From Loxodes magnus (taxonomy: Eukaryota; Ciliophora; Karyorelictea; Loxodida; Loxodidae), in the NCBI GenBank assembly GCA_946699065.1, contig CAMPDV010000280.1, forward strand, positions 1-64,000: 64,000 bases of DNA, in the 5' to 3' direction. Below the pieces are notes generated by a model, which saw only the letters and a list, made by a program, of their open reading frames with translations, had not been told where the DNA came from and made no database searches. Made by a program: the position numbers and the translations under genes. Below are positions 368-38,100 of this stretch, piece after piece (position 1 is the first letter of the stretch; every line of letters starts with the position of its first letter).

Positions 368-3300
368 TCAAACCTCTTCAACTTTTATCTCTTCTTCTAC
401 ATCTTTCTTAATTCCCTTTTCCTTTTCCTTTTCCTTTTCCTTAGCTCTTTTTCTTTATTGTCTTTCTTTTGCTAGTTAATCTAAAGATTTTCAAATTGAA
501 TCAGGCCATTATGCTTAATGTGTTACACCCTATATAAATTATTAGTCAGTTGCAGATATTAATTGCTTTAAATAATTATTGTCTAAGATCTTTATTTTTG
601 GAGAATTTTAAATTTTCTTTGTTTTCTTATTTTTCTTTTACAATTTTTTACTTTTTTTATTATCTTTTTTCTATTCGATTTAGAAATTATGACTAGCGTC
701 TTCTTTCTAAAGCATGACTTCTTTGTTCTAATTTTAATTTATAGCAACTAACTACCTTTAACTCGACATTTATAAAATGATAGAGTGATCTGAATTAGGT
801 TATTCAGCAATGAAGGTATCTCTACTATCTAGTTTACTTGTATTTTAATTTTCTTAGCCTTGGCAGCTAATTGGTATAGGGTAATTTTATAACTAAGCTA
901 TTTTATTTTATTTTTTTATTTCTTTTTGTTTTTTCTTTTCTTTGATTTACTATATAATATCCTTTATCATTGCTATTATGCACATTACTATTCCAATAGT
1001 TGTTATAGTACTTGAAATTAAGACTATTGTTCTTCCTAAACGATATGCTTAGTCTGAATTTACAGAGTTTAAGTTTCTAGTTACTTGCTCTTTGCTAAGC
1101 TAGTAAAAGTAGAAATTAAAAGAATACAAAATGGAGAGTCATGTCTCTTATAAGACGTGAATTATGTTAAGTGATTTAAACTTAAAAGGTCTACATTTGA
1201 GAATGTAAGCAAGTTAAGATAAACTTATTACTAAGCACAGAACTATCTAAGCCATTGCGTATTCCTATAAGCCTATTAAGATGATAGATAGCAAAACTCT
1301 TCTAAGCAGAAATAAAGGATAGAAAATTAAAGCTTTTCTTTCACTTTTCAGTTCATCGAATATAGAAAAGTATTTAGTTGTAAGTTCTTCTAGTTTCTAT
1401 TTTTATTAGGTTTCTCCAGTATTAATTTAGTTCTTTATTTAGAAATAGCTCTTTATAACAAAAAGCAAACGAAAAAGTACTAAAACTTATAAGATCTAAA
1501 TTATAAAACTTACTAAAGCTATTCCCGATGCTAAGACATTGAAAGAAGTAAAAGCGGTTTAAAAGTTGGGATTGTAAATTTGGAGAATGGAGGAATATCC
1601 AATTTACAAACTAAAGAACAGATAAACTGTTAAAGGTAGCCTATAATGGAAATACTTTTTTCTTAAGCTTTTTAGCCAAATGGTCTTACAAAGTTTTTAT
1701 TAAATAAGTAGAAGAATATCTACAAACAGTACTGATAAAATAAACATGTTGAATATAAAAGAGTTAGCTGAAAAAATGTAGCTTTCGTATCCTAATTACC
1801 GTAAATTAAATTTATGGACTTAACTAATTTATGATTCAAAGTTTATTTTGTCTTATATTTTATTAATAAAACTTTGACTTTATTGATAGTAGTAAGCATT
1901 TAGAATATCAGGCCTTTCCACTTAAATATAGGCATTCGAATAGAAATACTCAGTTGCGATCATAAAAGTAAATCAATTTCCAATTTAATTTGACTGAGAA
2001 AAAACCAAATTTGTAGTGGTAGATAAACATATTCCTGCTAGTATTGCTGATTATTCTGCTTGCTGAGTGGATTAGATAAACTATTTAATTTAATCAGATA
2101 TTCTATAGTTATCAATATTTAATTCTTAATCTTAAGTATTTGTCTAATTTTCTTCTAAATGTTTTCCTTCTTCTATATTTTCTTCTTTTTCCTCTTCATT
2201 TTATATCTTCTCACATGTAAAATTTTTTGTTATAATAAATTGGTCAAAGCATATCAAGCATTTACTTCCATCCTCTGAACATTATGAACAATTAGATATT
2301 TTCTATTCGCAAGGTAAGCAAGTCTTATTAATTTAGTCATAATATTCTGTCTAAGAGCATATTTCAATGCAATTATTATTATATAATTTTTTATTATTTT
2401 TACATGCTATACAGGTATTTTAATCTAAACACTTAGTACAATCTTCATTTATCTCTTAACAAGAAATACATTTTTAGTCAACTCCAATATAGAATCCATC
2501 ACTACATTTTTTGCAAGTTAATCCATCAGAAGTGCATTCTAAACAGTTAGTTAAAGTTTAGCTGCATGGTTCACATTTTCGATCTTTATTTGAGTCTTAA
2601 TGAGTAATAGGACAGTTATCATAGCAAGAATTTTAATAAAGATATTTATTAGCACATTAAGTACAAGTAGTCGCGTTTATGCAAGCTGAACAATCAGGTA
2701 TAATTGAACATGAAGAACACGTTTATCCTGAGATAAAATATCCAGTCTCACATAAAGTACAAACTGTTCCAAGAATATTACATTAAAGGCAATTGTTAAG
2801 AACTAAATTACATAATTGACAAATAAAGTCATTATCTTTATCTTATGTTGTATTTAAACAAGTATCTTAGCATGTTCCATCCAAATTCAAATACTTGTTA
2901 CTTAGACAACTTTAGCAAGTTTAGAGAGTTGCATTAAAACATTATCCACTAACACAGCCATTCGAACATAAATATGAATTAAAAAGAGTTACAAAATCGC
3001 TTACAGTGAATTATTTATTATTTGTCCAAAATCTTACATCGAATATACTACATCTAAATTATTAATTTTTAGATGAACCAATAGTAATATATGAACTTTA
3101 AGTAAACGGAAAATATTTGTAGCTAGTTTCGATTGCTGAAATAAAAACAAAATTTGTAGATGGTCCAATAAAACTGAAAGTCAGATTATTATTTGCTTGC
3201 TAAAACAAAATCAATGCTCAAGTATTACGAATTTTAAAAAAAGATTACCTTTCTAATTTGAAATTTTTATTATGAATTTAATTATGTTCAAAGTTGGTAT

Positions 3301-3568
3301 AAACTTAAAACCGATATTCCGTGTATTCATTTTAATCTTGCAAAGCAAGCGCTACTTAATAAAAATTATCATCATAAGTTAAAAACTTAAATCACCCTGT
3401 TATAGCTCAGACAGATGTTGAATTGAGCGAAGGATTGTAATTGAACTAAGAAAATGATTTATTTTGTTATTCATTGTCTAAGATAGTTATTGGAGGGCTT
3501 GAATTTGTAAGTTATAAGTATTAAGAGCACAATTATTAAATCCGCAAAGCAAGAAAGACTAGTCACAT
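368..3568 (-). CDS. LamininG-like / furin-type Cys-rich multi-span membrane protein (copy A)
   Basis: Predicted 1,066-residue surface protein read with TAA/TAG=Gln and TGA=Trp. It starts ATG TGA CTA (Met-Trp-Leu) and continues into a hydrophobic signal peptide ending near residue 18. Residues about 20-205 form a laminin-G/concanavalin-like domain (WAITGWFK near the start, VRFW near the end). Residues about 208-455 are CxxC-spaced furin-type repeats. An acidic linker follows, then roughly nine hydrophobic segments (about 510-890, including GNWFTFMIATE, whose Trp is TGA). The tail is Lys/Glu/Gln-rich and ends at TGA (370-368). The frame is intact throughout. Compared with copy F it lacks about 373 residues of Cys-rich repeats. 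Role (surface receptor or antigen) is inferred from architecture; no ligand can be named. The start is supported by the same ATGTGACT in three paralogues. Confidence 0.85.
412..441. repeat. Hexanucleotide repeat in the copy A tail
   Basis: Imperfect tandem copies of ccttttcc-type 6-mers. On the coding (minus) strand they encode an alternating Lys-Glu run in the cytoplasmic tail of copy A. Copy F has a shorter, unrepeated version here. Confidence 0.6.
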
Positions 3569-6108: not shown

Positions 6109-7839
6109 TCACTTATTAGCTCTCTGAACGATTTCTTTTTTTAAATTTATTTATCTAAACCATTTATATAAGCCTTATATAAAATCTTTTTGTACGACTA
6201 TTTTATTATTTATCAATATTTTTCCTTTTTATTATCTAAAGTTTTAGAATAAGGAGTATCTAACCTTTTAGAAATATAAATTATTTTAGCTATCTCCACT
6301 GGAGAATTTCATCACTCCTTTACCATTTTTTTAACCTTCTATATATTATCCTTCAAATTTACTTCCATCTTTACTCTTATACACACCATATCCATGCTTT
6401 TTATCTTTTAATCAGTCTCCTTCATAAGTATCTTCATTTGAATACTATATATCTCCTTTGCCATGTTTTAAACCTTCTATATATTATCCTTTATATATTA
6501 AGCCATCTTTTCATTTATATATACCTTATCCATTTTTTTCATCTTTTAATCAATCTCCTTCATAAATATCTCCATTTGAATATCACATATCTCCTTTACC
6601 TTCTCTTAAACCTTCAACTCACTGTCCTTTATATGTAGAACTATCTTATCATTTATATATACCTTAACCATGTCCTTTATCTTTTAATCAGTCTCCTTCA
6701 TAAGTATCTCCACTGAAGAATTTCATGATTCCTTTACCACCTTTTAAACCTTCTACATATTATCCTTCAAATTTACTTCCATCTTTACTCTTGTATATGC
6801 CTTATCCATGTTTTTTGCCTTTTAATCATTCTCCTTCGTAAGTATCTCCATTTTAATACCACATAGTTCCTTTACCTTCTCTTAAGTCTTCTACATATTA
6901 TCCTGTATATTTACTTCCATCTTTACTCTTGTATTTACCATATCCATGTCATTAATCTATAAATCAATCTCCTTCATAAGTATCTCCATTTGAATACAAC
7001 ATAATTCCTTTACCTTCTCTTAAATCTTCTACATATTATCCTATATATTTACTTCCATTTTTGCTTTTGTTCATTCCATATCCATGTTTTTTATTTTTTT
7101 ATCACTCTCCTTCATAGATACAGAAATTAAATATTTTTAGGGATTATGAATTAGTACAATTTTCAAAAATACAAAACTTTCATTAGTTTTTACCTTTCTA
7201 CATTCTGGTAGAATAACAACTTATATAGCAAGAAGGAATACTTCTAGTAAATAAATAATTTAAAAGCTACTATTTATTAATATCTATTATATAGCTTTTG
7301 CTTTGTTTTAGAATAATTAATCTAATGTCTAAATTATTTTAAATTAAAACAGCAGTGATAGTTAATTTTTAATTTATTGCTTGTTCTATCTCTTCTATAA
7401 TATCCTGATAGTTCTGACTTGTTTGTAGCCAATAAATATACTTAGATTTATTTGCAATTTATGTATAATTCTTTATTTTAATTTGCTTGGCATAGATAAT
7501 AACATTTTTTATAGAAGCATTAAAAGTTTCTATAGTGATGTTTAAATTGTTTAAAAGAGAAAACAAACAGGTATGAAATATATTCAAAAGTATAAATCAA
7601 AAGCTTATTTAATTTAATCTTTTCACTTGAAATTGAATTTATTAAGCTGGAGAATAAAGAGATGATTGAAAGTTAATATATTAATACTTCTTAATAACTA
7701 AATTACTAGAATCATAGTAGTATAATTGATATTTACCTAAAGCGTAGTCAGTTTGTATATTTATCTAAGCTGACTTATTAAAGGCTAATATTTTTAAATA
7801 GATCCTAAGCAATTTTTATTAAATAGAGCTATCTAGCAT
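6109..7839 (-). CDS. MORN-repeat protein with an N-terminal unknown region
   Basis: Predicted 576-residue protein. Residues about 242-517 (7116-6289) are twelve uninterrupted 23-residue MORN repeats of the YEGDW...GHGxGxY type, a family that usually sits at membranes, cortex or flagella as scaffold or lipid-binding modules. The repeats alternate between two types, so the unit is a 46-residue dimer repeated six times. The conserved Trp of YEGDW/YKGQW is TGA in most repeats, which strongly supports TGA=Trp. Residues 1-241 match nothing I know but have coding-like composition in the same frame. The start (MLDSSI, 7839) is the best upstream Met but is not certain. The first TGA after the repeats (6111-6109) is taken as stop; an in-frame TGATGA lies at 6048-6043. 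Confidence 0.78.
6289..7116. repeat. Six 138-bp tandem units encoding MORN dimers
   Basis: The MORN segment is six tandem 138-bp units (2 x 23 codons), each with one YEG(D/E)W-type and one (Y/F)xGQ(Y/W)-type repeat. Neighbouring units share long identical stretches, which suggests growth by unequal exchange of the dimer rather than of single repeats. Confidence 0.75.
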
Positions 7840-8189
7840 AATTAGATTTTACTCTTAGTATCTTATTAAAGTTCTTACTTTAATTAGTTTAGGAATTATT
7901 ACAATAAGCACTAACTTAGATATTTTGAAATAATTTAATCTTTTATTTTATTAAAGCAAGAGATTAAGATATTTATATAATTTATATTGTAAACTTTAAT
8001 ATAGGATAAAGCAAACTAAGATTAAATTGCTTAGATATATAAATCATAAATTAAATTTAAAGGAATTACAATAGAATTAATAGATGAAAATCTATAAAAT
8101 CGAACTAAATTTTCATTGTAATAGCAATATAAATCCCATTAATTATAGAACTAAGATAAACTTTACAATTTTTCTCTTGATCAATTTCT
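7840..8189. other. AT-rich spacer
   Basis: Sequence upstream of the MORN gene. The MORN frame stays open here, but composition falls to that of spacer and there is no convincing Met, so I treat it as 5' flank. Nothing else recognised. Confidence 0.35.
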
Positions 8190-8380
8190 GTCCAGGAGGG
8201 TTGAATTCTAAGATTCCTGGTGTAAGCGGACTTCGCTTATATTTTTGGTTTCTCTTCCGAGGTTGGCATTACATCAGCATGAGCTATTTTCTTCTGTAAC
8301 TTTGTCTCCTCATACTGATACCAGATCCAGGCTTTTACTTCTTAAGAGCTACGAAGAAGCCTTTCTCGAGGTTTATATAT
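8190..8380 (+). ncRNA. GC-richer island with hairpins, candidate structured RNA
   Basis: An abrupt GC-richer stretch of about 190 bp in AT-rich DNA. Perfect or near-perfect stems are visible: CCAGGA (8192-8197) with TCCTGG (8215-8220), TAAGCG (8223-8228) with CGCTTA (8234-8239), and GGCTT/CTTC (8330-8341) with GAAG/AAGCC (8353-8361). A T-run follows near 8382-8389 on the plus strand. It matches no snRNA, tRNA, 5S or SRP RNA I could recall. The strand is a guess from the T-run. A coding exon on the minus strand is the alternative: all frames are open, so coding cannot be excluded by reading. Confidence 0.28.
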
Positions 8381-8399
8381 TAATTTTTTTGTTTGAATA

Positions 8400-10385
8400 G
8401 ACTAAATAAGCTACAAATAAATGCAAGAATAGAAGCTAAATAAAAAAGCTCCTTTACTAGCTTTATTATTTCAAATATAAGCATAAGAAATGTTAGCTTC
8501 TTATTAATCAAATTACAATCTTCTTTATTCCAAAACTTAGTTATCTAAAACTTCCAAATCTCATAAATTTATTTTCTGCTTCATAAAATAGCTGACAATT
8601 CCATATAAGACTTAGTTAGAGGAGAAAGAATTTTTATACATTTCTAATTTATTTTTGTATAAATCCGAATAAACAGCTAAAACTCCTCCTTATATAAATG
8701 CTATATTTTTAGTAAAATGCTATTCTTAAGTTAAGTTAAATTAGAGTTTTAATAAAATAAAAACCCTACATTTCATGCTAAAGCTTGGTATCTTTGAGCA
8801 ATTATTTTTTGAATAGAAGTAACTTAAGATAAATATGCATATACTTCGCCACCATAACTTACTTTATTATCTTCAAATTTACAATTATCAACAAGGTTTA
8901 TTATGGTAATGCTAGTAAAATAACTCTACCATAATCTAATGCTTTATTTGATAGAAATTAGTTGCTAGTTATGAAATAAGAAATAGAGTTTTATAATATA
9001 AACAGCCTCCTTATGAAGCTATATTAAAGCTTAAACACTTGTTTTACATAATTTAAATTTCTGATTATCTAATTAATGCTATAATTCCTACAAACTAACT
9101 GGCTGAGTTATAACTAAAGGAATTAGAAAAAATGCTAGTGGCATTGGAAATCTCTAAATTTAAAAATTATCCTTATTTTGCTAAGGCTTTATTACTTCTA
9201 GCTGTATTATTTTAAATCAATCTTATAATTTAATTTTAACCATAAATTGAGTCTCCTTCTTTAGCAATGTTTTCAATAAAAGCACAATTTTCAATAAGAA
9301 AAATGGAAGAATAGAAGATTAAGATAGCACCATCTCAAGTATATGCTTTGTTATGTATAAACAAATTGCTTATAATCAGTTCAGCTTTTTAGTATGTAAA
9401 AATATAAAAGCATCCTGATCCTTATCCTGTTATATTTTAGTAAAAATGTTTCCTTCAATTTGCTAAATCTCAGAGGATCAAGTAGTACCAAAAATTCCTC
9501 CTTTAATAATAGAAAATTTTGATAAAACTAATTATCTTTTAAATAATATATAACAGATCCCTATAATAAAAGAAAGCTCCTATGCTATAAAGCACTATTC
9601 ATTTTACTTTATATGCAAGAAACTTTAAAACTACGGAATTTGATAATAGTTAAGCTCCTCCTGTGTCTGACAGACTTTTTGAAAAAGCAATCTCTAATTT
9701 ACTAGATATAGGTGAAAAAAAATTATAAGGCACCTCTATATTGTTGTGCTTCATTTTGAGTAATCTGGTTTTCTGTTATTAAGCTTACATTCTAAAACCA
9801 TAAATTAATATCTGCTCCTGTTAATTAGTAGTATTTAGAGTAAAGGTATTATTACTTACTTCAACAAAATTAGAGCATAATGCATAAATAGCACCTTCTT
9901 CTCAAAAAGTACCATTATCTGCTTAGTTCTATATAAAAGAGCATTTTAATATTTAAAAAAATGTAGAATATTCTATAGAAATAGTTCTCCTTATACTGTA
10001 GAGTTATTTATTAATTAATTGCGAAATTTATAATTATTTAAGCCTTCTTAGCATAAAATACTCCTCCTAAGTCTCCTATTTTAGTTTATATAAACTTAAC
10101 TATTTTAAATAATGTCTATAGAAGTATCTTATACGCAAAAGGAACCCCCTTTCTAAGTTAAGTAAGAATAACTTTACATCTAAAAGAATTTATTTTTGAA
10201 TGGTCAGAATATAAAGCACTTCCAAAATATTAACCTCTATTGTTTAAAAAGTAGCTATCAAACAAATATAGAAATGAGTTAAATGAAAATATGACTCCAC
10301 CAAACTAACGTTAGTTGCCTGTAAATTATGAATTTGTATTTATAAGAAAGAGTCAATAGAAATTATAACTGCTTCAATTAATTAT
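8400..10385 (-). pseudogene. Decayed PbH1 (parallel beta-helix) surface-protein gene
   Basis: The minus strand carries many PbH1/POMP-like fragments of the kind seen in the intact gene at 12745-20058, such as LGGVFYA near 10070, EEGAIYALCSN near 9890, YRGAL near 9735, SGCFYIF near 9415, WDGAILIF near 9325, YGGEVYA near 8850 and SKGAFLF near 8445. They lie in at least three frames, and reading must shift repeatedly (around 10085, 9980, 9800 and 9665, among others). No signal peptide, GYWR region or membrane domain is present. It is best read as a dead, truncated copy of the beta-helix family, oriented divergently from the intact gene. Confidence 0.65.
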
Positions 10386-10395
10386 TTAAAGTTAA

Positions 10396-10562
10396 TAAAA
10401 TTACTCCTTGGAAATTTCCTCCAGGGATTCACTCCTTTGGAAATTCTGTCTTCTAATAGGGTATGGTCGAAATGATGCCCCAAAAAAACCTAATCGTCTG
10501 GCATTTTTCAACCGTTATTCAATGCCTCCAGTTCTTTCCTCTTGGCTCCTACCAAGATTTTT
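10396..10562 (+). ncRNA. GC-richer island ending in hairpin plus T-run, candidate Pol III RNA
   Basis: A second abrupt GC-richer island of about 165 bp. It contains the palindrome GGAAATTTCC (10410-10419), ATGCC (10475-10479) facing GGCAT (10500-10504), and a perfect 6-bp hairpin TCTTGG-CTCCTA-CCAAGA (10540-10557) followed by TTTTT (10558-10562), which looks like an RNA polymerase III end. The family is not recognised. A coding exon on the minus strand, including an open frame beginning ATG TGA just upstream near 10588, remains possible. Confidence 0.3.
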
Positions 10563-10884
10563 GCTCAATTTGATTGTACTCTATCACATTTTTTTTCTTA
10601 TCTATAGAAATTTTATATCCAATTTATTTGAACTTGACAATTTCTAGCCTAATTTAATTCTATCTTAATTTTTCTTAATTTAAGCTTTTTCACTTATATT
10701 TTTATTTATAACTAAGTTAGCAAAATCTAAATAAGGGTGAAAAGGAAATAATAATTTAGCAATGAAGATATTTAAATGAGTTTTAAAAGCTTATTTTTAT
10801 TGTATTAATGTAGATAAATAATTATTGGAATGAAAGAGAAATGTTTATTGATTTGAATTATTTAATTTTTAGTTTATTTTCCTT

Positions 10885-11655
10885 TCAGTCACTTTAATAT
10901 TTTTGGTTTGAAATTAGTTTTCTTAATTAATCTGCATTAATTATATAATCCCTTTTTAATTAATTCTTAAATCACTTTAGATATTCTAAATTTGTATTTA
11001 ACTCTATTTAATATGGTTTAAGTTTCTTCTATTTTAGGATTACTTATCTTCTATATTTTAGTAGGATATTTAAATGTTTATAGATAAGCATGCCTAATTT
11101 AAATTAAATGAGTCTTATCTAATTTAAAGTAAAACTTAGTGTTTATGGCATCTTTTTTATTTTATCTTTAATAATCAATTATTTATAATAAATGAAGCTA
11201 GCTTTATTACTTATATCTTAATAATAAATTAATCCTTCTTCATAATTTGGCGCTCTTTTTAAATCTCTCTTCTATTATAAAACTTAGATAGTTGATTAAT
11301 TAGTATATTTATAATAGTTTCCTAATCTAAATTAAGGTATAAGGATATAAATGCTAATGTATTAAATTAGTTATTTCCCCAAGCAAGACACTTTGTATGT
11401 AATAGAATTATAATTAATCCTCTTAGCATTTTCTTCAATGTTTATCTTTCATTTGTAAATAATAATATAAAATATCACTATCATTTATCTTAATTTCCCA
11501 TGCTTATTAATGTTAATAATTTGATAAACTGGTTTCTGTATATTTAGGCATGTATCTAAAGTATTCCTTATAAAATAGCTATTAATTAGTTTATGTATAG
11601 TAAGTTTATATTAATAAGCTAGATTTATTCTAAAACTATTTATTTTATAAAGCAT
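10885..11655 (-). CDS. Unrecognised possible gene, about 256 residues
   Basis: Weak call. With TGA=Trp one minus-strand frame from a Met at 11655 to a TGA at 10887-10885 has more Ala, Gly, Pro, Asp and Glu codons than surrounding spacer (for example a run near 11255 reading KRAPNYEEGLIYYQDI). It matches no family I know and has no signal peptide or repeated motif. The whole frame may be chance, since nearly any frame is open under this code; listed only because composition differs from the flanks. Confidence 0.25.
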
Positions 11656-12744
11656 AATCAATTCTAGAAGTAGCTTCTTTAGATATTATCTTTAATTTCT
11701 AAACTAAGTAAACTTCTAAAAACTTAAATATTTAGTAAAGCTACTAAAAATTAAGATATTAGCATGATGTCTTTAAGCTTATCCTATCAAAACAGAAATA
11801 AAAGTCTTCTATAATTGAAGATAGTAATGCTTATATAGCTAATATACTATAAAAGAGATATAAGATCTAACAAGAAAGGAATTAAAGCAAGCTAAAACTA
11901 ATTAATTTAATCTAAACTAATAAATATAGCAAAAGCTATAACTATTAAAATAAACATTACATTCATATTTAAAACTAAGATAAAATACTCAAATATGTAC
12001 ATGGTTTAGTTTATTCTAAAACTAACTAGGAAAATATAATGTTTATTAACCTACCAAAGTACCATGTTATTAATATGTTAATAAGAAAGAAGAAATTAGA
12101 AGAAATGTTTAGGGCTAAAGCTAATAACTATTTAATAGCTTTATTTAGTTAGGAACAAATCCTTTTCTTTATTAAAGAGAATATGTAAAATTGTGTTAGG
12201 ATTGCTATAAAAATATATGAAGTTAAATAATAAAATAAAGCTTTAACTTTATGTATATTTGTCTTGAAGATTCTAATAAATAAATTAAATAAACTGGTAA
12301 GTTAAATATAAGAAGACTTTTAAAAATAGACGATAAAGCTTCTATTCTAATAACTTAAGAAAATTTAAATATATTAATAAAAAATAATAAAACTAAAGAA
12401 TAAAATTTAAGTTATTTTCTGCTTTTAAATTAATAGAAAATGATCAGATAGTTAAAAATATTAAAGTATTAAATCATGATGCTAAAATATGAAAAAGAAT
12501 AACAATAAAGAGTTTATCTGATTTATGCTATTATCTAACTGAAATATTTCATATATTTAGGCAAAAAATAAATGTATTATTTAAGGAATATTAATGCTTG
12601 TGTTAATGATTCCATTAGAATATATGAATATAAACAAATATAAAAATAATAAATTAAAATTTAACTTTATGCCTATTTGTCTTTATCTCTCTAATGCTTA
12701 TATCAAATAAACTTTAAATCATTTATTTACTAAGGAAATTAAAT
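11656..12744. other. AT-rich spacer with a diverged direct repeat
   Basis: Sequence upstream of the large beta-helix gene. Two diverged segments, about 12190-12275 and 12598-12690, share a similar series (tgtgtta...atatatgaa...ttaactttatg...atttgtctt), so a local direct duplication is likely. No gene is recognised. Confidence 0.35.
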
Positions 12745-15700
12745 ATGACGAGAGCAATAAGTTCATCTTTGTTACTTTTGTCGATTTTATACTCTATTTC
12801 TAAGCTTGGATGCTAAGCTATTAATGTGTATATTACAATACCTTAAATCACAAGCTTGCTATCGCTTACTAATCTTAATGGATCTTTAGAATAACCATTC
12901 AATTCTTTTTCAAATGCGCTCCTTAGTTTGACCGAAGGAGTTTATTATGAAGTTTTCGTTTCTCCTCATTAACATAAAGTAGATTGCTTAGTATGTTCAA
13001 AATGTACCTCTTTATGTGAAATTCTTAGAGGAGGGATAGCCAAAAAAGCACCTAAAAATATAACAATTTAGCCATTTAGCTGCAAAGACGATATATCAAA
13101 CAAAACTATGTGTCTAGACAAATAAAACTAAACTACCTTATATATTCAGAAAGTACAGCTTTAGATATACCTTCAATAGTATGACTTTCTAAGTTTAAAG
13201 AATCTAATAATAAGTGGAGAATAGATAAACAATGGAGCTACATGTAACTAAATAGACTGCACTTTATTTTAAAGCAATATACTTATAAGATCCTCCAGTG
13301 CTATGATATCAATAAATAATACAACTATTAAAAACTTTTACCTAAAGTAGAATTCCTTACTTTATGGTGATAGGAGTGTTATAGAAATTTATAACTCATC
13401 ATTTTAAAAAAGCAACACTTCTGATTCAGGAGCTTCCTTAATATTTAGTAACTCTCAAATTACTATTTAAAATGGCAAATTCATCCAAAACGGAGGGGGT
13501 GTTATAAAAGCTTCTGCATGTAATATAACTATAAATGAAATTTTGATTTCAGAAAGTTACTCTCCAGCAGGAAACTTTTATTAATATAAATCTTATGTAG
13601 ATTTACAAAATGGTACCTTTTATCGAAACTAGGGACTTAATGGAGCATGCTTAAACATATTATACTCTGAACTCCATGTAGTAAAATCCAATTTTTATGA
13701 AAATTCAGGACTTCAAGGAGCAGTTATGTATTCTAGATATTCCAATTCCAGCTTTTAAGATTGTGTTGCAGATTCAAACTCAGCTGTAAAAGGTGGAGCC
13801 TTTTTCTTAATCTTTACCTTTAATGATTATATCTCTAATTGCACTTTTAGAAATAACTAGGCTGAAGAGTCAGGAGGTGTAATTTTTAGCTGGTTTTCCG
13901 AAATGAACGTAGTAAACAAGAGCAAGTTTATTGCGAATAAGGCTAAGATATTTGGAGGAGCTATTTCTTTGTTTCAGACAAATATAAATTTTATAGATTA
14001 TAACTTGTTTGATTATAACCAAGCTGAATAATAATGGGGAGGGGCCATTTTTATAGTTAACGCTTTTATAAAGTCATTATCTGATAATATAGTATAGAGT
14101 AACATAGTTTTCTCAACAGACGGTGGGTTTTTCTATTCAATAAATGTCACAATTAGAGTACTACAAAATAACTTCTTCTTTAACAACTCAGCTAAGAATG
14201 GAGGGGGCATCAGTATTTTCTCAAAATCTGTAGTAGAAATAGTCTTTAATAATACCTTCGATTCTAATTTGGCTTAAAATTGAGGAGCAGCCTTTTATTC
14301 TGAAAACTCTAAAGTACTCTAAATAACAAAAAATACATTTATAAGAAACTAGGCTTAATGATATGGGGGAGCTTTAGCTTTCATTAGTTCAGAAACCAGC
14401 TTAATTGAGGATTGCGTGTTCATTTAAAACGCAGCAGTTTACTTCAGCGGAGGGGCTTTGTATTTATAGAATTCGATAGTAGAAAAAATCAATAATATTA
14501 CAGCTTAGAGCAATTAAGCACTTGGAGAAAACGGAGGGTTTGCATGCTTCTAGTAGTCTTATCTTGACGTTTTACAGAGCAGTCAATTTCTGAGAAATGA
14601 AGCAAAGTAAAAAGGAGGGGCACTTTTTCTAGTATCCCAAGACAAAAGAAAATAATCTTATATAATAGAATGCTCCTTTATTCTCAACCAAGCTGATTCA
14701 GGAAGTGTTTTTTATTTCTAGGGTTAAAGCTTTAATCTCAACAACTTGATAATAAAGTAAAATAAGGCAATTAAATACGGAACAGTATACATAGACTTTT
14801 TATAGGCTTATTTATCTGATATAGACGTTTAAGATAATGCAGCATATAAAGGTGCGTTTATTTATAGTGTTCAATCTACTTGGTCATTCGAAAATATCAA
14901 TAGTATCAATAATGTTGCAGAAGTAAGTGGAGGAGTAATATACTCAGAATAGAGCAAAATCTAAGTTAAGAATTTAGTTGCATAGAAAAGCCTAGCTAGA
15001 TATGGAGGTTGCTTTTATCTTTCTGATACTGAAATTACAATTTTAGACAGTAGTCTTTAAAATAACGAAGCAGTTATTAACGGAGGAAACATAAATGCCT
15101 AGCAAGGAAAAATTACTATTAGAAACACTGTATTTAGGTAGAATTCTGCTAGTGATGGTGTTGCAATGTACTTATCCTAAGTTTCAATAAACTTATCTCA
15201 AAGTGACTTTATCAGTAATAAAGCTATTTCAGGATCTATTTTATTTTTAATGAACTCAAATGCTAGCCTAGACTTGACTAACTTCCATAACAATACTTCA
15301 ATAAATGGAAATGCTTTCTATCTAGTAATATCAGACTTATTAAGCTTATAAAGATGTTCTTTCTTATTTAATTAAGCCAGCCAAGTAATTCAAACTCTAG
15401 AAATAAAGATGATGACTATTAAGCAAAACTAATTTATAGAGAACTAAGCTAAATAAGGACTTATAGATACTAAAAACACTAATTTGGAAGTGTTAGACAC
15501 TTAACTGCTAAGAAACAACATTTCTGATGGAATTTTAATAAAAATTTCCAATAGAAACTTTAGTCTGCTAGACTGCTTTGTAGTGAACAATACAGCTCCT
15601 AAAGGATCTATTTTAGTGCTATAATACGCATAAGGAATAATATAAAATACTACTTTTGAGAACAATGAAGCCCTAAATGGGGGTTCTATACAGTCATAAG

Positions 15701-18700
15701 TTTCAATTTATTAAATATATAAATGCGTATTTCGTAATAATAGGGCATCAAGTTAAGGAGGTGCTATTGAAGCTAGCTAAGATAAAATATAAATTTAAAG
15801 TTGCATCTTCGAGCATAATTACGCTTTTAAAGGAGCAATCTTCTTATTTTAGCAAGTAAAAGCTGAAATTGATGATATACAAGGAACTGAAAATATAGCT
15901 AACATAGGAGGAGTGATTAAAGCTGATCAATCTAATATAACAGTTTCTAACTCTAAATTCAGCTAAAATTATGCAAGAGAAGGAGTTATCTTTCACCTTT
16001 CATAATCAAATATATAAATAAACTGAATTGAATGTTCAGACAATGTAGCAAAGGGAAACGGAGGAATTGCATTAATGCAACTAAACAGTACATTTAGAAC
16101 TGAATATTCAAATTTTACCAATAATAAAGCAGAAGAAGGAACCTTTTTATATGTGCAGAATTCTTAGTTCGTAGTTTCAAAATCGCTTATTTTCAACAAC
16201 TATGCTACCTCCATGGGTATCCTTAGTTTATGGACAGCTAAAACTCAAAAGGCAAGTGAAATTAAAAATACCGAAATTTATGAAAATACAGGACAAACTT
16301 CAACTATATTCGTTTATTAAAGCCAGCTAATTCTAAAAAGCACTTAGATATATAAAAACTAAGTAAGTTCATTGACTTCTGGAATTATGGTTTGAAGCTC
16401 TATAATTTCTATAGAGGATTCACTCTTCTAAAATTAGTAAGCATACCAAGGAGTATTCATTTTAAGTGATCTCAATTCAACTTTAAAAATTTATAGGAGT
16501 CAATTTATAAACGGCAGCGGAGATTAAGGAAGTTCTTTGCATCTTACTAAAACTAACCTGTATTTAGATTCTGTTTCATTCGAAGGAATGTTCTCATAAT
16601 AAGGTGCGATTTACGCTATTTAATCAAACTTATCAGTTTATAGAACTTCTTTTCTCAAAAGCATTTCTAAAATTTATGGTTCGATTATCTACATGGAAAA
16701 ATCATAAATTTACATGGAAAATTGCAAAATAGACAACTTCATTAGTACTGCATTAGCCTTCAAAGAAAGTTTTATAAACTTAAACTACACAAAAATTACT
16801 AACGGTTTCAGTAGCTAAACCTACAGCTCTGCAATCTATTCTTTAAATTCTTAGATCAATATATCTAATTGTATTTGCTCGCATTAATAAGCTTAGATAG
16901 GTTCATGCTTCTCTATTATAAACGATGATTTATAATACAATTACTTGATTAAAGACAATATTTTCTAAGATAATATCGCATTTTAGCATGGAGGAGCAGG
17001 ATTTTGTCAAAATGCTAACATAACTTTCTGAAATAACTTGTTTCAAAATAACCAAGTAAAAGGAGAAGGCAGTCAAATTTCTAAGGGAGGAGCATTAAAA
17101 GTAACATGTGATAAGGGTTTACTTTGCAGCTACTACTTTTAAGATAATTCTTTCTTTAACAACAAAGTAATGAGCGTAATAAGCGAAGGCGGAGCTATTT
17201 CATTCTAAGGAACAATCCCTACATTTAAGCCTGAATTAGATAGCCTTTTAGTATGCAAACTGTTTAAAAATAACTCAGCTTACTATGGAAATAATGTAGC
17301 CTCATTTGCATTTAAATTAAGTAATATTTCAGTCAGTGATGTGTTTGATCATTGCAATAATAATTCTATTGATAGAAGCTTAGCATCTTAATTACCTGGC
17401 TATCCTGTTCCTGAGAATGTTTTATATATAACAGATATTTTTGGATAGATAGTTAAAACTGACAATACTTCTATCGTTTCTATTTTTTCTGAAGACGCTG
17501 ATTTGTCTGGCAAGACAAGGGTATTTTCAGAGTTAGGAGTTTTTAATATTAAAGACATAATTGTCAAAGCTAACCCTGGAAAGCAAGTTCATATTTAATT
17601 AGAAACAAATTCTTTTGAAAAAGGAGATCTGGCACTAGACAAGAATATGGAAAACAAACTAACAATATCATTAAACATTGATAAGTGCCTTTAAGGCCAA
17701 ATATTGATAGACGATACTTAATGTTAAAGCTGTATATTTGGCTAGTATTCTTTAAATTAAAGTGATAAATCTTGTAAGGAATGCATGTAAGGAGCAATGT
17801 GCTATGGCGGTGATTTAATAGCACCTAAGGAAGGCTATTGAAGACTAAACTTTAAATCAGAGACAATACACAAATGTCCAAAGCATAAGGCTTGCTTGGG
17901 TACATTTTTAAACAGCAGCTTTTAAAATTAATACTTCAAAATAACCAACCCTTAGTAAAGAGAAAATATGTTGTAGACAGTAAATTGACAAGGAAACTGC
18001 AAAAAAGGTTATCAAGGAGTTTTATGTGATGTTTGTGAGTAAGGCTGATAAAAAAATGGACTGAACGAATGCTAGAGATGTATGAGTAAAAAAACGACCA
18101 TAATCGTATCTTCGATAGTGTTAGTATTATTTGGTGCTTTTATATTTTATATAGTAGTATAAACTTTAAAATCAGCATACGAATAAGAATCTTACTACGG
18201 AGTATATTTCAAAATATTCTCCAATTACATGTAATTCTCTAATCTAATATAGAGTTTCAAGTTTTAATGACCCGACTTCTTCAATGAAATATTTTAGATA
18301 AATCAATAATACTAAGCAGCTACAGCATCTATTTTCAAACTGGATTGTATTTACTAATAAAATGAGAACTAATATTACAACAAAGTAATGAGCAATATGG
18401 GATTACCAATAGTTATTTTAATAATAGCATTTACTTCTATTCTACTATATTCAATCATTAGAAGAAAGAAATTCATCAAATCTATTTTTATTACTACCAT
18501 GAGTGTTACTTTCTTCTAAATATACACTAACTTAATTATGGTTATCTTTAGTTCCTTTAGTTGCTACTAAATTTCCTCAGACTATGCAGTGCTAAACGCT
18601 TATACTGAAATAGAATGCTGGAAAGGTCGTCATCGAAAGTTTGTTATATTTCTTGCGTTACCAGGTTTATTACTATATGGAATATTTGTTCCTTTTATAG

Positions 18701-20058
18701 TTATTTTATACCTTTATAAGAAAAGAAACTTAATAAGTTCAACTCTAATAAAGTCTTAGTTTGGTTTCCTAACAATAGGGTATAAAGATAAGTTTTATTT
18801 CTGAGAGTTTATAAAGATGTACTAGAAGTTTATAATCACCTTAATATTTATCTTCCTATAAAAATCTACTATCATATTCCAGTTTTGGTGTCTAATCATA
18901 GTAATGCTTTCCTGTATATACCTATAGATGAGATATCAGCCTTATATTAAAAAAGAGCTTAATAGTTTAGAAATGAATTACCTAGGAATTTCAATTTCCA
19001 TATTGTTCATAGGAATTTACTTTGAATCAGGAGAAAGTTATAAATTACTAGATTTAGCCTTGTTTGTGCTGCTGATAGTGATAAATGGGTATTTCTTAGT
19101 AGTATGGTTTCATTATATCTTCACAGAATATGGATACTAGACATTTACCAATTCTATGAGATTTTATTTTCGCTTATGTCACTTTAAGAAATTCATAAAG
19201 TTGAATGAGATAGTTACTAAATGGGAAAAGAAAGAAGAGTAATTAGCTAAGAAGGATTAAGGCACTCTTGACAAGCTTAAGAAAAAGATTACCGATGCTT
19301 TAGTTCATAATAAGAAGAAAAAACAATAAGAAGCAAATTAGGAATTCTATGATTTGGATTAAGAAAACAAACATAGTAAGAAACTAAAGTTAGTATTCTA
19401 GCAGCAAGATATTATTCAAATGATCAAACAATTAGAATGGACTCTCTTATATGGAACATGCTTGAAGGAGCTGTATAAACAAGTAGCTTATAATCGTTTT
19501 CTCTCTTAATAATAGTACTGAAGTTACAGGATTTCATCAATTTAATCTAACTGATGAAATTTCAAAGAAGCTTCGATTTTATTCGGAGAAAGCGATTTGA
19601 TCATGAAAAAGCATAGAGAGTCAATAAAAGAAGTAAGTTTAAATCAAAGTCTGGAAAAACACTTAAATACTTAAAAGCAAGAAAGTAAATTAATAGACGA
19701 AAATTTAATTGAATCTCATTTAAATAAAAATTGGAATTTAGAGCAAGAAAATGAAGAAAAAGAACCAAGTATCTTATAGTTAGAGAGCAAATAAATTATT
19801 ACAAAATAACCTCAAAATATAAAAAAAGAAATCTAAATAAATAGGTTAAATTATTAATCAAAGTGGCCTAAAGCAAAGTGAGCGTTTTATGATCATTATG
19901 AAGGATAAAAAAGTGATAATGATCAGGGAAATACAGTGCAAAGTTTCTAATTTTATGAAGACGGAGACTAAAGCAATATTTTAACTACATTTAGAGACGA
20001 AGAAGAAAAAATTGAGAAAATGAAAATAAAAGTAAGGAGTGAAATGTTTATTATTTGA
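12745..20058 (+). CDS. Giant PbH1 beta-helix surface protein with GYWR Cys-rich stalk and 7 membrane spans
   Basis: Intact predicted 2,437-residue protein. Residues 1-25 are a signal peptide (SSSLLLLSILYS core, then GCQ). About 100-1550 are dozens of PbH1/polymorphic-outer-membrane-like repeats with recurring GGA(I/F)(F/Y) and N-x-A-x-x-GG turns. About 1650-1780 form a Cys-rich stalk with the eukaryotic receptor-like pattern GYWR...C...C.G...C..GY.G.LC..C..GW; the Trp of GYWR is TGA at 17839-17841. About 1785-2128 hold seven hydrophobic spans, and about 2129-2437 a charged cytoplasmic tail. The stop is TGA at 20056-20058, in frame from end to end. Likely a cell-surface adhesion or sensing protein (inferred from architecture). 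Codons show TAA/TAG=Gln throughout. A decayed relative lies upstream on the other strand. Confidence 0.9.
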
Positions 20059-30679: not shown

Positions 30680-33600
30680 TCAAGCATCTTCAACTTTTAT
30701 CTCCTCTTCTACATCACTCTCATTTTCCTTTTTCTTATGCATTCTACTCTTTTTTGCTTGCTTTTTCTTATTCTACTATACTTAAGGTTTTTGAATCATA
30801 TCAGATTATTATGCTTAATGGGTTACACTCCATATAAATTATTAATCAGTAGCAGATATTAATCATTTTAGTCAATTATTGTCTAGAACTTTATTCTTTG
30901 GAGTATTTTAAATTTTCTTTTTATTCTTGCTTTTCTCCTTCATTTTTTTACTCTATTTATTGTCTTTTTTCTCTTAATTTTAGCTATTAATATTAGATTC
31001 ACTTTTTTAAAATACTAATTCTTCGCCCTAATTTTCATTTATTACATTGCTAACTAATTTCCTTGAACTTGACATTTATAAAATGATAGAGTTATCTATA
31101 TTAGGTAATTCAGCAATGAAAGTATCCCTATTATCTGATTTACTTGTATTTTTATTATCTTAAGCTTGGCTACTATTTAGTTAAATTTAATTTTATAGCT
31201 AAGCTTATTTCTTTAATTTTTCTAGTTCTTTTTGCTTTTTCTTTTCTTTGATTTATGTGATAATATCCTTTATCATTGCTATTATGCACATTACTATTCC
31301 AATAGCTGTTATAATGCTTGAAATTAAAACTATAGCTCTTCCTAGACGATATGCTTCGTCTGAATTTAATTAATTTCTTTCTTCTTTTTCTTTACTGAGT
31401 TAATGGAAGTAAAAATTAAAAGAGTACAAAGTGCAGAGTCAAAATTCTTAAAAGACATGAACTATGTTTAGTAATTTGAACTTGAAAGGTTTGCATATAA
31501 CTACATAAATAAGTTAAAATAAACTTATTAGCAAACAAAGAACTATCTAAGCCATTACATGCTCCTATAAGCTTATTAAGATTAAAGATAGCAGAATTCT
31601 TCTTAATAGGAATAAAGGATAAAAAATTAAAGATTTCCTTTCGCTTTTGAGTTCGTCGAACAGAGGAAAGTATTTAGTTGCTAGATCTTCAAGCTTCTAT
31701 TTTTATTAGATATCTTCATTATTAATTTAATTCTTTAACTAGAAATAATTCTTTAAAACGAAAAGTAAACGAAAAATAACTAAAACTTATAAAATCTAAA
31801 ATTATAAAACTTACTAAAACTATTCACGAGGCTAGGACGTTAAAGGAGGTGAAAGCGGTTTAAAAGTTGGGATTGCTAATTTGAAGGATGGAGGAATATC
31901 CAATTTACAGACTAAATAGTAGATAAAGTGTTAAAGGCAGCCTATAATGGAAATATTTGTTCCTTAACTTTTACAGCCAAGTTATATAGCTAAATTTTTA
32001 TATCATAAGAAGAAGAATATCTACAAACAGTACTGATAATATCAATATATTGAAAATGAAAGAGTTAGCTGAAAAAATGTAATTTTCATATCCTAATTGT
32101 CGTAAATTAAATTTATGGACTTAACTAATTTGTGATTCAAAGTTTATTTTGTCTTATATTTTATTAATAAAGCTTTGACTTTATTGATAGTAGTAAGCAT
32201 TTAGAATATCAGGTCTTTCTACTTTAATATATGCGTTTGAATAGAAAAACTCAGTTGCAATCATAAACGTAAGCCAGTTTCCAATTGATCTTTATTAAGA
32301 AAAAGCTAAACTTGTAGTAGCAGCTGAACATATTCCTGCTAGTATAGCCGATTATTCTGCTTGTTAAATTGATTAGATAAATTATTTAATTTTTTTGGAT
32401 ATGCTATAACTATCAATATTCAATTCTTAATCTTATGTATTCTACTTATTTTCTTATAAATTTTCTTCTTCAGGTATGCTTTCTTCTTCTTGTATATTTT
32501 CTTCTTTATCCTCTTCATTTTAAATTTGCTCACATGTAAAATTTTCCGTTCTATTAAACTATTCAAAGCATATCAAGCATTTACTTCCATCATCTGAGCA
32601 TTATGAACATTTAGATATTTTCTATTCGCAAGATAAGCAAATCTTATTAATTTAGTCATAATATTCTGTCTAAGAGCATATTTCAATGCAATTATTATTA
32701 TATAATTTTTTATTACTTTTGCATGCAGTACAGGTATTTTAATCTAAGCACTTAACACAATCTCCATTTATTTCTTAACAAGAAATACATTTTTGGTTCT
32801 ATAAAAAGAATCCTTCTTTACATTCTAAGCATTAAGCAAGTTACTAATCACATTTACTACAGTTTTCTATTTATAAATCACAACTCTAACAAATATTATC
32901 TTAGTCATAATCTTATTCACTTTCATCACATTAAGATATACATTTATTTTAAGAAAGCTTCAATTTATTACACTTTAAACAAACATTTTACTAATTGCAG
33001 CCAATACAATTTACATCTATCTAAGAGCATGAAGAACAGTTATTATTGAATGGAGTTTGATTTCCAAAACATTAATCACATACAAGTTAATTATTTTCTA
33101 CATAACATTTCTCACAATTTTCTATTTCATAACTACAAGCTTAGCATTCATTATCTTTATCTAAGTCTTATTCAGTATCTGGACAGAAATCTACACATTA
33201 ATTTTAAGAAATTAGTTTTTCGCAAAACTAACAAATAAAAGAAGAATCATAAAAATAATGTTTAGAGCAGCTATCAACACATTAGTTATCTTATAACTTT
33301 TTAGGATTCTAACAACTTAAGCAAGTCTTTCCATCTTGCGAGCAAGTAGAACAAAACTAAATACTTTCTTAACATTATTTACATTAAGAATTTTAATAAA
33401 TCCAATAACTAGTTTCGCAAATATAGCAAGATTATACTTATTAATTGCACTCTTAACAGTAAGGAATCACTTAATTACAAGGTTCACAAATTTAATCTTA
33501 ATTTAAATCTTATTCACTTGCAGGGCATTGAATGTCACATTTCTTATCGATTCATTTTAATTTATAAGGATTAAAACAAGAGACACATTAAGAAGTATTA

Positions 33601-35000
33601 CAATTTTGGCAATTATTTGAAAATGCTGAGCAGGCCAGGCATTAATCTTTGTTATTATTTAAATAAAAACCGAGGGAACATAGAGAACACTTTAATCCAT
33701 CTTCTGTACATTACTAACAACTTCATATGGCATCATTGCATCTTAAGCATTTTCTATTATTATCTTTATCTTACTCAGTTACTGGACAGTTAGTTGAACA
33801 TTTGTTTATATCATATTCTAACTTATAAGGAGAAGTACACTCAATACAAGGATTTCCTCAAGTGGAACATGTTTTACAATTATTTATTGTGCAGGCATAA
33901 CATTTTAAGTCAACTCCAATATAGAATCCATCACTACATTTATTGCAAGTTAATCCATCAGAAGTGCATTCTAAGCAATTAGATAAAGTTTAGTTACAGA
34001 GTTCACATTTTCTATCTGCATTTGAATCTCAATGAGTAACAGGACAGGTGTCATAGCAAGAATTCTAATAAAGATATTTATTAGCACATTAAGTACAAGT
34101 AATTGCATCAGTGCAAGCCGAACAATCAGGTATAATTGAACATGAAGAACATGTATTTCCTGAGATAAAATTTTCAGTCTCACATAAAGTGCAAACTGTT
34201 CCTAGAGAATTACATTAAAGGCAATTGTTAAGAACTAAATTACATAATTGACAAATAAAGTCATTATCTTTATCTTATGTTGTGTTTAGGCAAGTATCTA
34301 AACATGATTTATCCAAATTCAAAAACTAGTTATTTGGACAAACTTGACAAGTTGTGAGTGCTGAACTATAGCATTATCCACTTAAGCAGCCATTTGAACA
34401 TGAATATGAATTAAAGAGAGCCAAAAATTCAGATTCAGTGAATTATTTATTATTAGTCCAAAATCTTAAATCATAAATACTACAATTAAATATTGTATTT
34501 CGAGTTGAACCAATTGTAATATAAGAGTTAGGAGTAAATAAAAATTATTTGTAGCTAGTGTTGATAGAGGGAATAAAAATATTACTAGTGGAAGATTTTA
34601 TAAAGCCGTAGGTCAGATTGTAATTAGCTTGCTAAACTAAAATTAATGCTCAACTATTATAAATGTTTACTAAAGAAATCAAACCCAAATTGAAATCAGC
34701 AGTATAAAATTTTAAATGTTCATAGCTATTATAAATTAAAAACTAAATATCCATATAGGAGCTTTCGTTTTACAAAGTAAAGGCTGTTTAAAATTTTGTC
34801 CCACTTAAGAATTAAAATTTAAATCACCCTGTTACAGCTCAGCCAGTTTGTGAGTTTATTGAAGGATCGTAATTAAACTAAGAAAATAATATTTTCTGTG
34901 TACTCAATCCTTATACAGTTATTGGAGTATTTTGATTTTTAAGTTATAAGTATTGAGTACAAACTTAATAAAGCTGCAAAGCAAGGAATGCTAGTCACAT
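30680..35000 (-). CDS. LamininG-like / furin-type Cys-rich multi-span membrane protein (copy F), one frameshift
   Basis: Predicted 1,439-residue surface protein once one extra base is skipped. It starts ATG TGA CTA (MWLAFLALQLYQVC), a signal peptide. The lamininG-like domain spans about 20-205 (WAVTGWFK, DLRFW). CxxC furin-type repeats span about 205-830. An acidic IPEEES linker follows, then about nine hydrophobic segments (about 885-1260) and a Lys/Gln/Glu tail ending at TGA (30682-30680). Both ends are in the expected frames except for one extra A in an A4 run at 31798-31801, where copy A has A3; this may be a sequencing slip or a real lesion. The membrane half is closely related to copies A and H, the extracellular half to copy G. 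Function as receptor or antigen is inferred. Confidence 0.85.
31798..31801 (-). other. 1-nt insertion (frameshift) in copy F
   Basis: Plus-strand ctaaaattat here against ctaaattat at 1496-1504 in copy A. The extra A shifts the frame in the membrane domain (about residue 1067). Coding similarity to copy A resumes at once in the shifted frame and continues to the shared stop region. Homopolymer position makes a read error plausible. Confidence 0.8.
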
Positions 35001-35172
35001 TTTTATTAATTAAAAGTGAAATTAAACTTAATTTAGTTTTAAACTTAAAAATTTCAATTTATCCAAAGTTTTGCTTATAATAATAATAGAAGGATTAATA
35101 TTTGATAAAATTATTATTTTAAGGAAATTTAGATATGAGTTTTTAAATGAGGATTTAATTTTGTAAAGAAAT
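32440..35172. repeat. Left arm of the inverted duplication (copies F and G)
   Basis: This segment is the reverse complement of 43682-46430 with only scattered differences. It holds about 170 bp of upstream sequence plus the signal peptide, lamininG-like and Cys-rich regions of copy F. Similarity stops in the acidic linker on one side and about 35172 on the other. Boundaries were judged by eye. Confidence 0.75.
35001..35172 (-). promoter_or_regulatory. Conserved upstream region of copy F
   Basis: About 170 bp upstream of the copy F start closely match the 170 bp upstream of copy G, including an atttctttacaaaattaaat stretch and a tccttctattattattataa stretch. It probably carries the core promoter, copied with the gene. 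No individual element can be named. Confidence 0.35.
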
Positions 35173-38100
35173 ATACAGCTTTTTTAAGTTTTAAATTATT
35201 ACTATTTCTATTTATTAAATGTTCTGACTACGTAATAATCTTATGGATTATCTTTTTAAAAATATTTTAATTAGAAACCTTATGTAGAACTTTACACTTA
35301 AAAATTTTGATTTCTTTGTTTAATATTCTAAGATTAAAGCATTTTCATGAATAGATTTAAAGGTTAAGAAACAATTTAATAAATCAAAAAGCTTGGTAAT
35401 AGCTTATTTCTATTTCAAGTATTATCCTATACTTAAACAATGATTATGATTAAATATTGTTGTTTTGTACCAAGTATTCAACTTAAGTGAAAAATAAATA
35501 AATTATACTTGCATATACATTTAAAGATAATAGCTAATTTTGTATAAATAGCTTCTGACTTTATTCAATTTTGTAGATAGGATTTAGTAATAAAGATAAT
35601 CTAAAACTAATTAAGAAGGTATTTACTAAAATTTTTTTATGTTTATAAAATTCGCTTTCATTTAGATTTATGACCTAAGACATCTCTAAAAGAGTATATA
35701 AAATGTTTTATTTAATCTAATTTTAAATAGCAGTTGCTGTATAAAAAAAGATGCTAAAATGTTTGATTCTGCTGTTTAATAAATATAATTGTGAGGATTT
35801 TTTATTCTTTTATAAAATTCTTAATCTATGTCGTCTTCCTTTTTATCTTTTTTCATGTAAGTTCCAGATATTTTTATTGGTAAGCAACTTCAAGAAGAAA
35901 AAAATATTGAAAGAAACAATTAGCTTAGAAATAAAGAAAATAATAACAGAACGAGAAAAAATGAATCATAGTTAAAGTTATTTAGTCTATTTATTAAATA
36001 TTCCTAATCTTTCTTAAAAGAAAAAAGATAAATATTAGAAATTTTAAAACTCCAAATACCTTATTTACGATTTATGAGCTAGAAAATAAAAAAACTGAAC
36101 ATTTAAATAAATAAAATCTTAGATGATTTAGTTATAGGTATGAATTAAAATTATTTATCTTTATATTATTTTTTAATTTAGATAAATTTTAAAAGCAATA
36201 GAAAATTGGGCATTAGCTTCAGAGATATATTTAAATAGCTTTATAAGATTAAATTAATAAAATAAAATAAAAAATACTTAAATTAAGTTGCGTAACTTAT
36301 TTAAATTAATAAAATACGAAAGGAAATCTAAAACCTATGAAGCCAAATAAATAAAAATTTACAGGAGAAAAATAATCATAAAGTTATTTTGCTGAAATAA
36401 TCTGCAAAATGATTGGAAGAAGGTCGAAAAGCAAAATCAAAAATAGTTTTAAAATTTTATTATGAATAAATTTTAAGAAATAAGACAGTTTCTTAAAAAA
36501 TAAAATAAATTAAATTCTACAAAATTGACAAATAAATTTAAAAATAAAATTTAGGAAAATACTTTTAACTTAACAAATTTATTTATTTTAATTTCATTGT
36601 AATAAAATTTAAACTTCATAATTCATTTCACAATTATTAATAAAATATTTATCAATAAGTAATCCTTAATAAGCAACTTTATACGATTAATGTTTTCTCC
36701 TTAAATCACAAAAACAGCATAATAAAATAATCATATCTCACTAATTAAATTTTTAATTTGTTTCATATTTTATAGAGTATATCATTTCAAATTTTAAAAT
36801 GGTTTTAATTTTTAAAATTTTAATTTACATTTAATGTATAATTTTAATTATTACTAAAAAATATTCTATCTAAATTTAAACTTTTTATTAAATTATTATA
36901 TTTATTAGCTTTTATTATATATTTTTTATTATTATAACTTTATTATAGCAATATCATTCTACGCTAATAGTTAAAGCACAACATTTTTTATTAGTTTTAA
37001 TAGAAATTATTGTTTTGAACTCCAGTACTTTTTTAGTTTTATTATCTATTTAAGTTTGCTAAATATGGTTTTATAGCTATTCTGTTTATTTTAAAATTCG
37101 TGATAAATGTAATGAATCAGCAATCCTAAGTCTGATTTTATATTTTCAACCTTTCTTCGTTAGTACATCAGATTTAAAATTAAAAATTAAAAAATATGAT
37201 AGAAACTCTAAACTTATTTAGAAAATAATTATATCAATAAGAACATAATTAAAATATTTTTAAGAATGCTAAATCATACTAATACCATATAATCTACTAA
37301 GAGATATTTAAAATTTTGGTTGATAATTAACTAGCTTAATGTTTTCTATTATTTTCTATCTCTTAATTATTAAGAAAGACAACTTCATAAAGGATAATTT
37401 TTTCCTATTATTATAATCTTTAAAATGATTATTTTATTTTTTTCTAAACATTAACTTTAAAAAGGTATATGAAATAAATAATTTACATTTCACTTAAGTA
37501 TTTAAGTAGTTCGGCATCTACATTAATATCTTAAAGTGGGTGATAATAATAATCACTAAGTAAATAAAATCTACTTAGATATTTTAAATTAAAACTATTA
37601 ATTTCTTAATATAAGCAAAGATTCTTTAATTTTAATTATTAATTATGCTATTTTTATTTATGATATAAGTTTACCTCTTTATAACTATTTTTAGTTTATT
37701 TATTTTTTAACTTTTTCTTAAATTGAAAAAATGCTACAATTTCAAAAATAAATTAGACCTTATTTTTAATTTGTTAGATAATACCAACATTTAATAAGAT
37801 ATATCCATATGAATTGTATATAATTTCTAAATAGTAATATAAGATAAATTTAATAAAGCTAGTGTATTATTTTGCTAGAAGTTAAAAATAAAATATTTTT
37901 AACCCTAAATTATATCAGCATTTTTAATATTCCTTTATTATCAAAAGTTCATTTGATGTTCTTAACAATTATTAATAAATCAAGAGGCTATTCAATTATA
38001 TAAAGGAAAATAAAACGTTTGATATTTAAATCTTCAAAATAGAAAGAGAATATAGTAAAATAGAAGAAAGATATTAATAGATTTATTTATTAGTTATAAT

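Follow-up and report, generated by a model that had tools for sequence, protein, structure and literature searches.

The 64,000-nucleotide stretch analysed here (the window) is nuclear DNA of the genus Loxodes, almost certainly of L. magnus, and its genes are best read with the karyorelict code (NCBI table 27), in which UAA and UAG specify Gln and UGA means Trp within genes and stop at their ends. We put the probability of this reading at about 0.96. Codon meanings were established through homology, and the assembly searched comprises 705,730,643 bases in 7843 contigs. TAA and TAG fall on Gln in a MORN array, in the tubulins and in a set of Cys-rich paralogues, and TGA falls on conserved Trp columns within the MORN and tubulin genes. 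All homology-anchored gene ends examined are TGA. An initial annotation, made from the letters of the window, had proposed table 27, and these results bear it out. Loxodes is a member of the class Karyorelictea, and the code found here is the same as that of the table 27 organisms Loxodes and Parduczia, without any difference. Since Seah et al. 2024 give this code for Loxodes (PMC11441545, in the part cited), and organism and tRNA device are likewise published already, the novelty of the assignment is low. A codon whose meaning as sense or stop depends on position is one of the clearest exceptions to a fixed genetic code; the window shows the dual TGA cleanly, with the matching tRNA and release factor in the same genome. 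The features discussed below are listed in Table 1.

Table 1. Features of the window, in window coordinates
Feature	Position	Strand	Basis or remark
Paralogue A, Cys-rich	368..3400 (upper limit approximate)	-	terminal TGA 368-370 after VEEV
MORN array, 12 units	6289..7122	-	Pfam PF02493, E=1.4e-66, 216.9 bits, read with table 27; may be a fragment
Receptor frame, 2437 codons plus stop	12745..20058	+	codon-usage scan segment 12793-20007
TGG of WGGA, Trp codon of sister repeat	14035..14037	+	
In-frame TGA of NWGAA	14281..14283	+	
In-frame TGA of EGYWR	17839..17841	+	
Putative stop TGA of receptor gene	20056..20058	+	end of coding score and fall in G+C; not anchored by homology
Paralogue B, Cys-rich	32000..35198 (limits approximate)	-	paralogue alignment
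Paralogue C, Cys-rich	44401..46560 (limits approximate)	+	paralogue alignment
Paralogue D, Cys-rich	56763..62135	+	terminal TGA 62133-62135 after VEEI

We examined the ends of the 30 top-scoring tubulin loci. In all six beta-tubulin loci, TGA directly follows the conserved C-terminus, and the loci are unrelated straight beyond it. All 24 alpha-tubulin loci also have TGA after the conserved end, but these are weaker evidence than the beta loci because they are recent, near-identical copies that are partly alike beyond the stop. The script used for this purpose sought TGA past the conserved end; that all 30 loci end in TGA was read from the printed tails. Both eRF1 copies end in DEDFL-TGA, with an indel between them about 12 bases further on. 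Paralogues A and D have a common V-E-E-V/I-TGA end and diverge beyond it. Every paralogue had initially been described as ending at TGA, which holds for A and D, the two of the four Cys-rich paralogues whose end was traced. In both eRF1 copies we also noticed, from position 2764, a second in-frame TGA three codons past the stop, resembling a back-up.

The two eRF1 copies (L030 and L031) carry the motifs RAQNIKS and FLCENTF, and both have Ala at the position of human Ser70 (L030 was aligned to human eRF1, L031 was read in the sequence). Another locus (L029) matches the eRF1_1 family but was kept out of the eRF1 counts; the stretch of it that was read resembles pelota, a relative of eRF1. In Table 2 of PMC4695839, the combination RAQNIKS/FLCENTF/Ala70 is found in the row for Loxodes striatus and in none of the other 13 rows. 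The eRF1 of this genome thus has all three features of the genus, in agreement with the origin suggested in the initial annotation, Loxodes or something closely related to it.

Gene ends and release factor both speak against a Condylostoma-type code (table 28), in which all three codons would serve as sense and as stop. Here as in Condylostoma magnum, UAA, UAG and UGA can all be sense, and their meaning is set there by nearness to the mRNA end (PMC4967479, in the part cited). In that species, however, UAA and UAG are stops as well (same source), whereas neither TAA nor TAG occurs at any of the 34 homology-anchored ends examined here, all of which are TGA (those of 30 tubulin loci, both eRF1 copies and the two window paralogues with a traced end). 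Moreover, Gln sites 22–25 codons ahead of the TGA stop are filled by CAA/CAG, TAA or TAG depending on the beta-tubulin copy, and the eRF1 motifs are those of Loxodes. Table 28 is therefore very improbable.

A tRNA pattern allowing the anticodons CCA, TCA, CTA and TTA had 128 matches on the assembly and one on the reversed control. Among the 100 matches listed, 98 have one tRNA-Trp(CCA) 3' half in common, and none has the anticodon TCA. We found two arrays of tRNA-Trp(CCA), one with at least 48 copies about 187 bases apart (G000:C67:482323-491202) and one with at least 50 copies mostly 241 bases apart (G000:C148:155464-168939). Three copies were read whole, while for the others listed the view spanned the part between anticodon loop and T arm. 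ARAGORN calls tRNA-Trp(cca) for all three, and the Rfam tRNA model matches two copies with 58.2 and 58.9 bits, the top pair of the anticodon stem being non-standard in both. Indeed, the 27:43 pair is mismatched in each of the three (A.C in C67, U.C in C148), which leaves an anticodon stem of 4 bp; the copies read from the two arrays differ in position 27. A single-sequence thermodynamic fold of two copies did not give a cloverleaf. Two tRNA-like loci on C12 and C84 (L085, L086), called by neither ARAGORN nor Rfam, were dropped as degenerate.

In Blastocrithidia and Condylostoma, the reading of UGA has been tied to such a 4-bp stem, which is credited to Loxodes as well (PMC13092985, PMC12005148, in the parts cited). 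The tRNAs found here have the CCA anticodon and mismatched top stem pair of this known device, and here they lie in long tandem arrays. Going by this literature, the short-stem tRNA-Trp(CCA) would read UGA besides UGG, while Ala70 would weaken the action of eRF1 on UGA and the altered TASNIKS and YCF motifs would blunt it on UAA and UAG. Gln-tRNAs that read UAA and UAG are to be expected. With 3'UTRs being short, eRF1 would win only in the vicinity of the poly(A) tail; such a context model, based on poly(A) nearness, was put forward by Swart et al. 2016 (PMC4967479), and both a short 3'UTR and termination by nearness to poly(A) are reported for L. magnus in the cited part of PMC11441545. Blastocrithidia shares the 4-bp-stem tRNA-Trp(CCA) for UGA and a changed eRF1 but differs in using UAR for Glu and UAA as stop (PMC12153298, in the part cited).

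The position of TGA within genes is clearest in the tubulins. Counting the conserved Trp columns that coincide with TGA, a check proposed in the initial annotation, gave the outcome expected under table 27: of the 36 TGAs present in 50 tubulin segments, 28 are confined to two of about 210 columns, namely Trp21 and the Trp/Phe column 101–103, and TGA also occurs in the W column of the MORN repeats (see below). The remaining eight tubulin TGAs fall elsewhere. At Trp21, the 36 segments without TGA have TGG in 35 cases and Leu in one; at column 101–103, the 36 segments without TGA there have TGG (6), Phe (26) or Tyr (4). In segment L076, the one segment checked in this respect, both TGAs align to Trp21 and Trp101 of solved beta-tubulins. 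The residue most often opposite TAR is Gln. Twenty tubulin segments had been hand-picked from matches with at least one TGA, so that their ratio of 36 TGA to 7 TGG is biased by this choice, but the column result is independent of it. In the unpicked tubulin table, counted by eye, none of the top 30 matches contains TGA, compared with 116 among the remaining 120. The tubulin family is hugely expanded in this genome (258 candidates, of which 150 were scored and all 150 matched), with many tandem or facing copies (contigs C64, C237, C629, C441, C134 and others).

The four Cys-rich paralogues of the window were aligned pairwise with the three codons masked. In 25 aligned cells, one partner has TGA; the codon facing it is TGA in 8 of them (four pairs, each entered twice) and TGG in 5. 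The 12 misfit cells have TAA (3), GGA (3), CAA (2), TAT (2), TTA (1) or GAA (1). Three codons of paralogue B, which face Gln, Gly or Gln/Glu in the sister copies, account for 7 of these 12, suggesting that part of the copies may be adrift or no longer intact; the three odd TGAs may be either Trp substitutions or the onset of decay. Opposite TAA, the commonest codon other than TAR is CAA (32 of 468 cells), followed by GAA (24) and AAA (23). The coding frame of paralogue D contains a 258-bp tandem repeat (window 58123-59188, 4.1 copies, 98% match), which is a recent internal expansion. We also considered the Giardia VSP family for these paralogues, but Pfam matches were weak for B, C and D and absent for A. 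As all of them were below the cut-off, membership was not accepted.

Under a Tetrahymena-type code (table 6), with TGA as a stop only, the in-frame TGAs would mark pseudogenes hit by nonsense mutations, and their enrichment at Trp would follow from the ease with which TGG turns into TGA in AT-rich DNA. The window genes are indeed multi-copy, the odd TGAs of paralogue B lie in non-Trp columns, and the canonical tubulins and eRF1 do without TGA at Trp. However, TGA stands at Trp101 in beta-tubulin L062 and at both Trp21 and Trp101 in L066, and these two are 97–98% identical in protein to the canonical L048 and L057, with pN of 0.025–0.031 and pS of 0.71–0.77. A protein kept this constant while synonymous sites are saturated indicates that L062 and L066 are working genes, and as they carry TGA at conserved Trp, the pseudogene account is ruled out for them. 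TGA is thus more than a stop in these tubulins. In addition, dN/dS between the window paralogues is 0.22–0.54, and the eRF1 Ala70 and short-stem tRNA-Trp also stand against table 6, which we consider extremely unlikely.

The reading of TGA as Trp was also examined in the MORN array, for which no gene start or stop was found. The array has 11 TGA, 1 TGG, 13 TAA and 1 TAG codons. Seven of the 11 TGAs occupy the same phase of the 23-residue unit, namely the W column of Y-E-G-x-W. None of 20000 random placements matched this concentration, although the placements are not truly independent, given that the units arose by copying from each other. The conserved Trp had been said to be TGA in most units; this is so in 7 of the 12, while the other five have Tyr codons in the W column. 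When each of the 20 residues was substituted for TGA, Trp gave the highest Pfam score (216.9 bits), ahead of Phe (210.0), Tyr (191.7) and Leu (189.3), with Gly lowest (120.7). For TAA/TAG, Gln was the best of ten residues tried (216.9 bits), ahead of Glu (211.4). In the window and 28 genome loci together (n=389), the MORN Trp column consists of TGG (140), TTT (93), TAT (89), TGA (48) and others (19). At many loci, MORN matches are spaced by 138 bases or multiples of it (contigs C150, C186, C1513, C1859, C1056), and some contigs have them on both strands.

We give next to no credence to TGA as another aromatic residue, for example Phe, even though the MORN score for Phe is just 7 bits below that for Trp in a column that accepts W, F and Y, and column 103 of the tubulin alignment also accepts F and Y, because Trp21 is filled almost exclusively by TGG where TGA is absent, five TGA–TGG pairs occur among the window paralogues, and the tRNA found is a tRNA-Trp.

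Trp as the internal meaning of TGA is likewise applied in the receptor frame, which, with domains assigned by eye, has a signal-like start, beta-helix-like repeats, a Cys-rich part with GYWR and then hydrophobic stretches. Pfam gave weak matches only, the best of them (DUF7630, E=5e-4) below the cut-off. The frame contains 100 TAA, 41 TAG, 14 internal TGA and 11 TGG codons; UGA thus makes up 14 of 2437 codons (0.57%), compared with 0.120% of codons in Parduczia (PMC4967479, in the part cited). The initial annotation had located TGA in GYWR and NWGAA and TGG in WGGA, and we find these codons, as well as the terminal TGA, exactly where it placed them (Table 1). The coding score stops at about 20007, and beyond 20058 the G+C content drops from 0.22–0.32 to 0.13–0.20; from this we infer that the terminal TGA is the stop of the receptor gene. 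The last internal TGA lies 59 codons and the last TAA 29 codons before it; in paralogue D, the corresponding distances are 58 and 22 codons. These values are in line with the depletion over about 20 codons before the stop reported for L. magnus in the cited part of PMC11441545. In the AT-rich gap between the MORN array and the receptor gene, a G+C-richer island is visible by eye (window about 8165-8385), without Rfam or tRNA match; Rfam and ARAGORN had no matches in the whole window.

A modest lead emerges from the choice between TGA and TGG at Trp. In canonical genes, none of 104 Trp codons is TGA (alpha-tubulin 0/72, beta-tubulin 0/24, eRF1 0/8), compared with 14 of 25 in the receptor gene, 30 of 41 in the Cys-rich paralogues and 11 of 12 in the MORN array; the loci in this comparison, from which the set selected for TGA was left out, are not independent, and the 24 alpha loci are near-identical. 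The proportion of third-position A among NAR codons is 0.73–0.80 in every gene set except the MORN array (0.91). TGA is avoided more strongly than TAA/TAG, which the canonical tubulins still use for 133 of 336 Gln codons in alpha and for 59 of 126 in beta. GC3 is 0.22–0.28 in eight canonical tubulin loci and 0.15–0.16 in the near-identical, TGA-bearing L062 and L066. Near-identical beta-tubulin protein comes in two classes, one with TGG only and one with TGA.

One explanation, to which we give an even chance, is that UGA for Trp is a leaky and costly codon in Loxodes. In divergent and multi-copy genes like those of the window, it would drift towards a mutational balance determined by AT pressure, whereas selection would remove it from the canonical genes, which are presumably highly expressed. 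In Blastocrithidia, highly expressed genes avoid reassigned codons (PMC12153298, in the part cited). Our limited literature search for such avoidance in ciliates brought up this report and a review on frameshifting; Seah et al. 2022, cited for the code, may already treat it. If the explanation is true, the choice of Trp codon would reflect the level of termination that a gene can bear, and the balance would be set by an eRF1 with Ala70 together with a single short-stem tRNA-Trp encoded in long arrays. The contrast between the two beta-tubulin classes could serve as a natural test of the cost of an ambiguous codon.
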